From Deuterostichococcus epilithicus (taxonomy: Eukaryota > Chlorophyta > Trebouxiophyceae > Prasiolales > Stichococcaceae), in NCBI GenBank assembly GCA_033439295.1, contig JAVTLE010000021.1, positions 1,984,009 through 2,048,008 of the forward strand: a stretch of DNA of 64,000 bases, written 5' to 3'. Positions 18,625 to 29,027 of this stretch are shown here, in pieces. The translations under genes were made by a program, and so were the position numbers. The stretch's first letter is position 1, and the number at the start of each line of letters is the position of its first letter. The notes below the pieces were generated by a model, which saw nothing but the letters and a program-made list of their open reading frames with translations, did no database searches and was not told where the DNA came from.

Positions 18625-24958
<6,334 letters not shown>

Positions 24959-25156
24959 AACACGCAGACGCCAGCATGCACGCACGATTGAGACGGCATG
25001 GCCACAATCTGGTGCATGCTGCATTGGCTGGCACATCATCCGCGATGCGCTATAAGGGTGAGCCAGCGCCGAAGCTCGCAAGATACAGGGTGAACCAGTG
25101 CGCCGTGGCGCTGGGCGTCGTGCTTGGGTTCAGCGCCTACACATACAAAGCAAATA

Positions 25157-26057
25157 TCAGCCATACAGCATCATTTTGTAGGGGCCTCGTGAAAACACAT
25201 GGCTCCCAAACCTCAGCAGCAGCTCGCACACCTGTAGCAGAGACAGGTGCATGACGAGCCGTGGCGCTGCACGCACCTTGACATGATAATTCTTCAGCGC
25301 TGTGAAGACGGCTGTCAGCTGGCCGCGGGCGCCAACCCACTTGTAGAGGCCAGGCCACAACCTGTACACGATGCGGGCGAGCAGCGCGATGCGGTGCATG
25401 CCGGCCTCGCTGGATCCGAAGCCATCGACGTAAACGGAAACCGCCACTCCGTCCACCATGATGTTCCCTGCGATCAGACCGCTTTCCCCTGCTGAATTCA
25501 GGGCGCATGCTGAAACGAGGACTTGGAGGCTCACACGGCAGCGTGCAGCTTGACTCCACGGCAGACGCCTCTGCATGTGGTTGTTGTCCTGCTGCGCAGA
25601 CGGTTGCGTCCTGGGCTGTTCAGCAGCACCTCGCACGGTGACTGGGGAGGCGAGCCCCGTGCCGGGCACGCTCTCGATGCTGGTGATGCGCTCCGCCACC
25701 ACGCGCCCGCCCTCTGCGGCGCGCCACAGGTACTGGCCAATGCGCACTTCGCGCGCCGGCACGGCGGCACGCGCGGCGAAGGGCGCGCCGGCCGTGCTGG
25801 CCACGTACATGAAGTGCGACCCCGTGAGCTCCACCTGCAGTGTCGGAGAGAGGCACGTGAGGACGTGCGGCTCAAGCAAGGCTCGGGCGCGCGGCTGTGT
25901 CGTTGCAGCCGCAAGCAAGGGCCGCGCGTGAGGACTTTGGCAGGTTGCAACCCCCACTCCGGCGCATTGCGCACCAGTGGAGAATCATCTTGGCTGCAAC
26001 GACAGAGTGATGACTCTGCGTGCGCGACAATCATTGCGCGACAGCCGCAACCTACAT

Positions 26058-26097
<40 letters not shown>

Positions 26098-29027
26098 CAG
26101 CAGCGGCGGCGCACCGCAGCGCCACTGGCGGTTCCCAGCCGCAGGAAGGTGAATGTGCCCTCGTTTTGGCGGTGCACGTCTGCCATCAACGGGCTCCATC
26201 CCAGTGTCCCATCGTCTAGCACGACCTACGCAACGCACCGCCGCATGCAACAAGTGTGAGACTAATGAGCGCAAGGCTCCAAGAACATTACACAGGCCTT
26301 CAGCCGCGTGGCTCCATCACATGCTGCACCGATTGCATGCCATCCCTGAACGCCACATGAGAACACTATGCGGACACACATGCGGACAGGGGCGGCCACA
26401 CTTGCAGTTTTACTGGACCCCCGTAGGCGAGTGGCGACCATGCCACGCTTACCTGCATCATGTCGCCGGGGCGCACATCGGCAAGCCGCTTGGTCGATGG
26501 TGCGCCGCCCTCCAGCACCCATGCTGTCGCAGCCAGTGGGAAGCAATCCAGTGGCAGATTGTAATAGAGCTCCATGTAGCCGGCTGGGCAGATGCGAATA
26601 TCCCTCTTTAAGCAGCCCGCTGCTATGACCGGGAGAAACTGGTCGCATTTGTAGCAGCTGCACCCCCGGAAAGAACCAGCCCCATTGTTCGGGTCGCATT
26701 GGATGCTTTTGTCGAGGATGGCGCCATTTTTCAGCACTTCGTATTGTAGCAGGCGCCGGCGCGTGCTATTGCCATTGGAGCCAGCGTTGTTTAGTGTGGA
26801 GCCGTCGCCGCCCACGAGGCTGATGCTGCACATGGCTTGGCCAGCCGGGCAAACTACCTGCGAGGCACCGTCGGCATCCCACTGGATTGAAGGGATCTGG
26901 TGAGCACAGAGCGCAGCGCTCAACTAATCTGCCACACGCTATGGTGAGACAACGTCCAAAGGACGGGGGGAGGGGGGTCACATTGTTATATATATTACTC
27001 CTCAAGGCGCTCACCTTGACGTCCATGCCATTGACTGTGACCATCCCCTGAACCATCCTGGGCGCGCCGCTTTCTGCGCAGTCCTGGCAGGCCGTCGCTT
27101 GCTTTGCCCAGGCAGAGCACCCAGACTCCTGCGCGATCTGCATCATCCAGGTGCAGGCCAGCGTCAGCTCAAGCAGCTGCCGCCACTGGGCATGGTGGCA
27201 ATGTGCAAGTCGTGCTTTCAGGGCACGCAAGTCAGCGGCCAGCCGACTTGGGTGTATCTCTACAACGTATGGAGCTAAATACTCTAGGATGTGTTCATAT
27301 TTTCATATTCCCATGCCACAGCTTGCTACATGACACTTGGCGGCAGCCCTTGTTCACCCGCACGGTTGAGACGTTGCTGGTCGTGTCCGGGTCGTCGGCA
27401 CCATATGTCACAGCTGGGAATGATGATTGCCCTGCAGCAACAAAACAGTGTAAGCTCGTTCGTCCAGCTTTGATGCGGCGGCGCGCAGCCAGCGTACGAC
27501 CAGCACAACATGTACGTATGCGTGTATCAGCGATTCAAAGCTCACCTTCATGCAGCCACTGGCAGCCTTGCAGCGCGTCGGCTGCGTTGATCATCGCTCC
27601 TGTTCCAAGTCGGTGTGCGCTCGTTCTACCCAAGCTGGAACATTCGGCCGGATCACAGGCTGGAAGTCAGTCACAACGAACAACGCAGGAACTTGCCTTC
27701 TCCAGTAGCGAGAAGCCGCCGGCGGCCCGATATGCTTGACGGCATGCTGATGTTCAGTTTCATATAGCCGGCAGTGGCCACGCGCAGGGTGTTTGCCGAG
27801 CGCTTGTCCTGCAGCGCGCCGGCCTGCCATGACACACACACCAGCTGATAAAGCGGCATCCTTTCTGATACACAGCTGCAGACTCAGGATGTAGCCAGCT
27901 CACCACCTATGCAAGAGGACGCCACGACAGGCTGTGCAGAACCAGACCAGTTCTGTCTGACCGCCATCACGGCCATGCGCCTGCAGACCTGACTTTTCGT
28001 GTCCTTGTGTGCCGCAACGATGCCCCAGGTTAGGCCCACGATGGCTCCGATCAGCAGCACCAAGAAGACCAGCATGATGCCAGCCGCCCTGCGGCGGCGC
28101 AATGACATACGACATGCGAGTCAGCATGCGTGCCACCTGAGACATCAAGCTCGCCCTGTGCAGCGGCACCAACTGCTGCTACGGGAGCACTGCTGTAGGC
28201 AAACAACACAACGGTGTTTGTGCAAACGCGTGTGAGCGGCTATGCTTATGTAGCGCGCGCGTGCGCGCCCAGTGCTGCATGCGGCAGTGTGCATGAGCAC
28301 GACTGGTGCGGCCAGGGTGGTCGCTGCCGTCGTATGCAATGGCGTTGCTACTTCGCACCATTTGAGGTACTTGAACTGGACTTCCCTGGCTATCACATCT
28401 TCAAGGTGGTCCACCTGCATCCAAAGCGCCAAACTGTCAGATTCGATCTGGCTGTTCACATCCGCCCTGTGCATCCATGGGCGCCGCCGCACGCACTCTG
28501 CCCTAGAAAGCCTTCCTGGTAGGCACAGAAAGTGCTGGCGCGCTCACTAGTTCCTGCCTGTCGATGATGCCGTCCCCGTCGGCGTCCAGACGCTGGAGGC
28601 GCCTCTCCAATTTTCGCCGCCGGTTGGGGAGGTGCCCAGAGGCGGAGTCACCGTCTGTGCCAACGGCGACGCGGATGCTGGGCATCTGGCGCAGCTCCTT
28701 CCCCGTTGGCTCGAGCACCATCCCAGCGCTCATAGCGACGGTGGCGAGCACCTGTGTGCGTCGCCGATAAGCGGATGCGCGTCAGCTATCACATAATGGC
28801 ACAGCCAGTAGCAACACTGCAACAGACTTGGGGTGTGACTCGTTTCAATGGGCATGTTTTTCGCCGAACGGAATATGGTGGACAGAAGGTCAATCTACGG
28901 GGGGAGCTGCATGCCCCAGCGCTTTTGCATCCACAAAGCGCTAGTCTACTGACAACAACTGAGAGGTCTGCAGCTCTGCAGAGCCGGCGACGACCACCTC
29001 AGGTCCGAAGCCCCGGTGCACTCCCAT
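25157..29027 (-). CDS. EF-hand / transmembrane / Hint (hedgehog-type autoprocessing) protein
   Basis: Unnamed membrane protein, about 595-605 aa. Exons: (28998-29027, tentative), 28548-28751, 28359-28414, 27989-28088, 27697-27823, 27546-27581, 27358-27431, 27015-27176, 26453-26896, 26115-26225, 25630-25834, 25277-25467, 25157-25231. Order of parts: an EF-hand (LDADGDGIIDRQEL, all canonical Ca ligands); basic residues, then one TM segment (GIMLVFLVLLIGAIVGLTWG); a Cys-containing ectodomain (exons 27823-26500; CSCYKCDQF); then a Hint domain. The Hint begins at DCFPLAATAWVLEGG near residue 371, continues LADVRPGDMM, LTGSHFMYV (TxxH), VPAREVRIGQYLW and ends GNIMVDGVAVSVYVD. A 75-residue tail follows. 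Positive-inside charge predicts the EF-hand in the cytosol and Hint outside or lumenal. Cys and TxxH are present, so self-cleavage at Asp-Cys is likely. One GC donor (27696). The start may instead be the Met in exon 28548-28751. Head-to-head with UPF0426. Confidence 0.85.
26059..26094 (+). repeat. (CAG)12 microsatellite
   Basis: Twelve uninterrupted CAG units followed by GAG(CAG)2 on the plus strand. On the gene strand this is a CTG run lying about 20 bases after the donor of the Hint-protein exon 26115-26225, so it is read as intronic in my model. Such runs vary in length easily. Confidence 0.92.

Follow-up and report, generated by a model that had tools for sequence, protein, structure and literature searches.

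What might a Hint domain do at the end of a membrane-anchored protein in a green alga? The question is raised by a gene on the minus strand of a 64,000-nucleotide stretch of the Deuterostichococcus epilithicus genome (hereafter the window; C18:1984009-2048008 of an assembly of 46.8 Mb in 21 contigs). The chlorophyll a/b binding family, with 39 matches in this assembly, marks its source as a photosynthetic eukaryote. The gene (25050..28733 in window coordinates, minus strand, as for all its features below) is modelled with 12 exons encoding 579 residues and a stop codon. Its predicted product runs from an EF-hand loop through a single transmembrane (TM) helix and a Cys-rich ectodomain to a Hint domain with a hog-like tail. 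The domain order of the models, the constraint on their exons, the catalytic residues and a variable block in front of the Hint domain can be read directly from the sequence. On this basis, we give a probability of roughly 0.5 to the reading that the protein is a membrane-anchored, non-Hedgehog Hog (Hint) precursor that would act by the steps proposed below.

The Hint module starts at Cys352 and extends from CFP to VSVYVDG (25421..26545, exons 8-11). An earlier note on this DNA had recognized such a domain from its motifs, and the Pfam search with the whole 579-residue protein bore it out with a significant match to PF01079 far over the cut-off (E 5.7e-22, 78.8 bits against 29.7). The motifs LDCFP, LTGSH and NIMVDGVAVSVY were all located on the minus strand. 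The codon of the Hint Cys in LDCFP lies at 26545-26543, and LTGSH, the TxxH motif, at 25814..25828, as placed by alignment to the Hedgehog Hint domain and the other models. The alignment to solved Hedgehog Hint domains covers domain residues 1-149 (6TYY and 1AT0) or 1-153 (6TD6), and the best score was obtained for 6TYY, the structure of a D303H variant (E 4.8e-9), over the wild type 1AT0 (E 9.9e-8). His400 in the stretch ADVHRQ (26166..26183) stands at the place of the general-base Asp (D303/D46 of Drosophila Hedgehog) in the structure-sequence alignment. According to the review PMC9163320, which names 6TYY as the D303H structure, this exchange preserves the fold and the activity and improves the reaction with some other sterols. 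D303A retains cleavage driven by dithiothreitol and loses full transfer of cholesterol; activity is absent in H329A and much reduced in T326A.

A Pfam Hint search of the algal genome itself gave 10 exon matches in 8 gene loci: the window gene, the tandem pair L011 and L012 (C18, 3.28 Mb), L014 (C18, 2.28 Mb), L013 (C18, 0.74 Mb), the tandem pair L015 and L016 on C10, and L017 on C5. Two of the ten single-exon matches exceeded the Pfam cut-off, one of them together with its neighbours in frame; among 14 control genomes one had a Hint match and none a match over the cut-off. His at the general-base place, Cys1 and a [TS]xxH motif are present in 8/8 models, and an alignment of seven Hint sequences (L012 omitted) has invariant columns at Cys1, at the His in position 49 and at the final His of [TS]xxH. 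The Hint domain is probably self-cleaving. It could instead have ceased to cleave and serve as a plain extracellular beta domain, as the altered C400 and -1 positions described below might suggest; we consider this improbable, since the Cys, His and [TS]xxH residues are kept even in the four domains sharing just 30-41% identity with that of the window.

The C-terminal tail (25053..25420) resembles a sterol recognition region. It contains an amphipathic stretch with a hydrophobic moment of 0.38, is conserved among the four close copies (the window gene, L011, L012 and L014), and has AHWF (25103-25092), a motif that resembles HWY, near its C-terminus. HWF is found near the end of all four close copies, HWT in L017 and RWT in L013. 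In L016 a weak last exon closes with HW, and the model of L015 stops short of the tail motif. The protein ends in ...FGAGSPL after this hog-like tail, and the intein-type arrangement of a C-terminal Asn, a nucleophile and an extein was not found. A Hedge signalling domain was not among the eight Pfam families listed for the 579 residues at E up to 10.

The exons for the EF-hand, the TM helix and the Hint domain appear to belong together. Spliced alignment gave the order EF-hand, TM, ectodomain and Hint in 7/8 Hint genes (the models of L015, L016, L017 and L013 are rough in the middle), which agrees with the single predicted protein proposed in the earlier note. Searches with the N-terminal parts of the window gene and of a C10 gene, which scored the best candidates only, recovered these loci; beyond them, the EF-hand and TM part (EF-TM) turned up just in one decayed copy on C11, and C3 gave a weak EF-hand match (E 0.36). 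Within the reach of these searches, the EF-TM module goes with Hint in this genome. That the EF-TM and Hint exons are two genes wrongly joined in the model is highly improbable given this distribution, the same order at five places (C18 at 2.01, 2.28 and 3.28 Mb, C10 and C5), the open frames of the four close copies (579, 579, 578 and 575 residues) and a number of intron positions in common.

We also estimated the ratio of nonsynonymous to synonymous substitutions per site (dN/dS) by the Nei-Gojobori method for the six pairs among the four close copies. The ratio is 0.28-0.65 for the EF-hand-containing N-terminal region (five pairs; one pair is identical), 0-0.06 for the TM helix, 0.04-0.60 for the first part of the ectodomain (ecto-A), 0.18-0.73 for the stretch before the second RRRLL, 0.23-0.42 for Hint in 6/6 pairs and 0.29-0.56 for the tail in the five pairs where it is defined. 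The highest ratios in ecto-A and in the next stretch stem from the tandem pair L011/L012. These values mark the EF-hand, TM and Hint exons as coding sequence subject to purifying selection. The genes seem to constitute a real family with a known kind of domain.

The EF-hand loop DADGDGIIDRQE (residues 50-61, 28551..28586) has ligand positions 1, 3, 5, 9 and 12 all filled, as the earlier note had stated, but its profile score stays under the curated Pfam cut-off of 25.4 bits both for the exon alone (EF-hand_1, E 2e-4, 21.1 bits) and in the whole protein (E 0.0025, 17.7 bits). It is the only EF-hand in the Pfam scan of the 579 residues, without a second hand to pair with. The TM helix WAAGIMLVFLVLLIGAIVGLTWGIVAA (residues 81-107, 28010..28360) is encoded by exons 2-3 across intron 2; the best 19-residue Kyte-Doolittle mean is 2.84, and no other region exceeds 1.6, in accordance with the single TM segment of the earlier note. 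Its Cys-containing ectodomain likewise holds, with 13 Cys between TM and Hint and none before the TM helix. The seven EF-TM-Hint models all have 0 Cys before the TM and 8-13 Cys from TM to Hint, and sequons occur after the TM helix only. We infer from the Cys distribution and the sequon placement a type II topology with the N-terminus in the cytosol. The calcium sensing inside the cell that the earlier note proposed would presuppose this orientation. Two basic motifs lie in the ectodomain. The first, GRRRLLATG (residues 147-155, 27701..27727), corresponds to GRRRLLQTG and SGRRLQQTG in the C10 pair; the second, STRRRLLQ (residues 278-285, 26744..26767), stands at the border of the hypervariable segment described next, and RRL is found there in 7/7 EF-TM-Hint models. 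A comparison of the ectodomain with the PDB at E up to 10 gave three matches that largely overlap in the region they cover and that we did not use: 7ccg, an RNA polymerase subunit delta (E 0.0029, 20.7 bits), and the chlorinase-type or hypothetical proteins 2q6i (E 0.42) and 2q6o (E 0.47).

Between the conserved RRRLL and the Hint Cys lies a hypervariable six-Cys segment of 67 residues (residues 285-351, 26546..26746). Across the six pairs of close copies, 29/64 to 41/66 residues differ inside the segment as opposed to 24/512 to 52/511 outside, a contrast with Fisher p of 1.5e-12 to 1.0e-24 in every pair. The 18 invariant columns out of 68 include all six Cys (chance 1.7e-4). In the segment dN is 0.40-0.64, dS 0.40-0.64 and their ratio 0.76-1.53, and the intron distance among the same four copies is 0.11-0.22. 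In the tandem pair L011/L012 the segment holds 42.3 of the gene's 442.6 synonymous sites and accounts for 18.25 of its 37.25 synonymous differences. Compared in 150-base blocks, the two copies share 98.7-100% identity at either end of the gene and about 61% in the block with the segment, a pattern that suggests gene conversion of their flanks. The pre-Hint exon of the C10 pair also differs strongly: 34/52 aligned bases are identical and the gaps are large, whereas the Hint blocks reach 88/104, 90/96 and 97/110. Unlike Cys-bearing peptides precede the same CFPASAE in these two copies. The diversity of this module suggests recognition and is the feature most worth following.

How could these parts work together? 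We propose that the TM helix brings the precursor into the secretory pathway in type II orientation, which would leave the EF-hand in the cytosol and place the ectodomain and Hint outside. Cys352 would then attack the Asp351-Cys352 bond, aided by Thr-x-x-His, to form a thioester, and His400, in the place of Asp303 of Hedgehog, would activate a nucleophile with a hydroxyl group, for which a membrane sterol bound to the tail is the likeliest candidate. With the departure of the Hint part, the ectodomain would stay on the TM helix with a lipid borne by its variable end, which may form a contact surface for recognition between cells or against other organisms. A basic-site protease might later release the ectodomain at the RRRLL sites. 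The earlier note had suggested that the Hint reaction itself could release the ectodomain. This idea does not hold for the order EF-hand, TM, ectodomain and Hint, in which cleavage before Cys352 frees the Hint part while the ectodomain remains bound to the membrane; its release would take a further cleavage, such as one at the RRRLL sites. Lipid modification of the ectodomain, also suggested there, is plausible in view of the hog-like tail with HWF and the match to a cyclase family, although that family is not specific to sterols. The proposed scheme would make the family a testable case, as its substrate is anchored, the candidate cleavage site is defined, a hypervariable module lies next to it, and the general-base place naturally has the His that was introduced there by design in fly Hedgehog.

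Several observations weigh against this scheme. C400 of the SCYA motif is replaced by Val, Ala or Ser in 8/8 models (VSVY in the window), and position -1 to the Hint Cys is not constant (D, Q, E, D, G, S, N and A in the eight models). Ser replaces the Thr of TxxH in L016 and L017. The charges flanking the TM helix leave its orientation undecided. The whole-gene dN/dS of L011/L012 is 0.77, compared with 0.28-0.43 for the other five pairs. A sterol acceptor is plausible given the matches to the squalene-hopene/oxidosqualene cyclase family (two exon matches in the genome) and to the Patched family (three exon matches), but these are unspecific for sterols and are also found in 2/14 and 3/14 control genomes, respectively. 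As a genome-wide processing site RRLLQ was rejected, with 451 matches against 349 for the scrambled and 306 for the reversed motif, an enrichment too weak to count. Some intron blocks of the C10 pair diverge as much as its pre-Hint exon (61/106 and 64/91). For the variable segment, with a dN/dS close to 1 and an elevated dS (0.40-0.64), positive selection is not proven; a long-standing divergence preserved by recombination, or a relaxation of constraint, would be compatible with these values too.

The first two of these points bear on an alternative in which Hint cleaves by hydrolysis only, acting as a timed chaperone or cap that leaves and exposes a lipid-free C-terminus of the ectodomain. 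The loss of C400 in all models and the non-Gly residue at -1 in 7/8 would suit it, and Hedgehog autoprocessing is known to include hydrolysis as a side reaction (PMC9163320). We nevertheless regard it as somewhat unlikely, for the HWF tail is kept in the four close copies under the constraint given above, and in the engineered fly protein His does serve as a general base with sterols (PMC9163320). The acyl thioester may otherwise be passed to a non-sterol nucleophile, such as a cell-wall sugar, an amine or another protein, which would tie the membrane protein to the wall. Given that no binding site for such an acceptor was recognized and that the amphipathic tail stretch could face the membrane, this is distinctly unlikely. 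Many algae are walled, which we counted in its favour. The change from Asp to His widens the range of usable sterols in the experiments described in parts of PMC8529194 and PMC9163320, from which acceptors other than sterols are an extrapolation.

The membrane-anchored precursor is also not the only reading of the variable segment. In a polymorphic recognition system, the six-Cys segment would be a mini-protein cut out at RRRLL and at the Hint site to give a lipid-tailed, copy-specific ligand; its diversity would be maintained and its flanks homogenised by gene conversion, as the pattern of L011/L012 may indicate. We hold this version to be unlikely. If true, a unicellular alga would possess a surface or released ligand that could serve mating, self-recognition or defence.

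How does the family compare with known Hint proteins? Non-Hedgehog Hog proteins, which occur widely among eukaryotes and are described as of unknown function, have been reported from red algae, mosses, alveolates, jakobids and haptophytes (Buerglin 2008, PMC2362128). The present family may be, as the earlier note suggested, a plant-lineage analogue of processed cell-surface ligands; Hog proteins outside animals, those of red algae and mosses included, already form a described group. Like those non-Hedgehog Hog proteins, the present ones have an N-terminal part, often with conserved Cys in the former, followed by the Hog domain; in haptophytes that upstream region is less conserved than the Hog domain, and the Cys of motif J, which by our own reading holds C400, is often replaced, with red algae and mosses among the cases. 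Unlike them, the present family has an EF-hand and a TM anchor, whereas several of the former have signal peptides or other N-terminal domains (GmGIN1, Hoglet) and "EF-hand" does not occur in the main text of that paper; in addition, the variation among close copies is concentrated in one 67-residue block. With the animal Hedgehog autoprocessing domain (1AT0, 6TYY) the family shares whole-domain Hint similarity, the Cys nucleophile, TxxH and a tail motif that looks like HWY, and it differs in the His for Asp303, the lack of C400, the lack of a Hedge domain match and a precursor held by a TM helix. Inteins and bacterial intein-like domains have the Hint fold and the first chemical steps in common with these proteins, unlike which they have a downstream extein in place of a hog-like tail followed by a stop codon. 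The Hog and Kelch+Hog families of Cyanidiophyceae are likewise multi-copy in algae, but have a Kelch partner and are mostly subtelomeric, and the portions of PMC13353863 drawn on here mention no EF-TM order. The same portions describe Hog proteins outside animals as of unknown function and, in one species, 8/10 Hog genes expressed mainly in haploid cells and one mainly in diploid cells. An Ectocarpus Hint gene shows low expression, in female gametes only (PMC3879662, in part), and a diatom has over 290 genes with a Hint/Hog domain (PMC12803021, in part). By analogy with these haploid or gamete expression patterns and gene numbers, a role in cell-cell contact is thinkable, and the family could reveal a role of Hint autoprocessing beyond animal Hedgehog signalling. 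Among the open-licence papers listed in our searches we found no description of the EF-TM-Hint order in algae and no paper on Hint with an EF-hand in algae or with Coccomyxa.

The gene model was built by alignment to three close paralogues, followed by a check of frame and splice sites in window coordinates. Exons 1-4 are located at 28733-28548, 28414-28359, 28088-27989 and 27823-27697, exons 5-8 at 27599-27546, 27431-27337, 27137-27015 and 26857-26453, and exons 9-12 at 26225-26115, 25834-25630, 25467-25277 and 25136-25050. Ten of the 11 introns are GT-AG and one is GC-AG (donor GCAAGT). The end of exon 6 (...KGCRQ) is uncertain, with the donor GTGTCA in the window where the three paralogues would need GCATCA. 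The gene start is marked by an ATG conserved in the four copies. The earlier note had delimited the same gene as 25157-29027, with a 5' limit 294 bases upstream of this ATG, and the span is corrected here to 28733..25050. Its exon set contained the right motifs but overlooked exon 2, which encodes the helix after the EF loop, and lacked the last exon, which carries AHWF and ends in ...AHWFTLYLASFGAGSPL and the stop codon. It had also taken intron sequence (IPSIQWDADGASQ; LIAG) as coding; the IPSIQWDADGASQ stretch is most likely an intron, because the paralogue L014 has a TAG there, which serves as acceptor in the model.

Further members and neighbours of the family deserve brief mention. L013 (C18:738000-746000) has a Cys-rich upstream part and Hint; no EF-TM part was found in about 4.6 kb upstream, where short exons could escape the patterns. 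It is possibly a secreted Hog protein. The decayed EF-TM-Hint copy on C11 (L056, C11:195500-204500, minus strand) is kin to the C10 genes; its EF and GALADKSSG exons are readable, TxxH has become TSGR, and a stop codon interrupts the aligned stretch. The C10 pair (2.533-2.541 Mb of 2.575 Mb) lies about 34-42 kb from the contig end, which recalls the red-algal subtelomeric Hog genes. Searches of viral contigs with the seven-sequence Hint alignment and of prokaryote genome contigs with a single Hint protein each gave 28 pattern matches, none of which was confirmed. Within intron 9 of the window gene, a GCA/CTG trinucleotide run (26059-26094) is also present, at differing length, in three close paralogues. 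Downstream of the gene, convergent plus-strand gene pieces extend over 24188-24958, and the upstream piece matches a helicase C-terminal domain (Pfam E 2.2e-9). The plus-strand frame with its stop at 24958 is probably the last exon of that helicase domain gene; some 90 bases separate that stop from the end of the Hint gene, so that little room is left for further exons.

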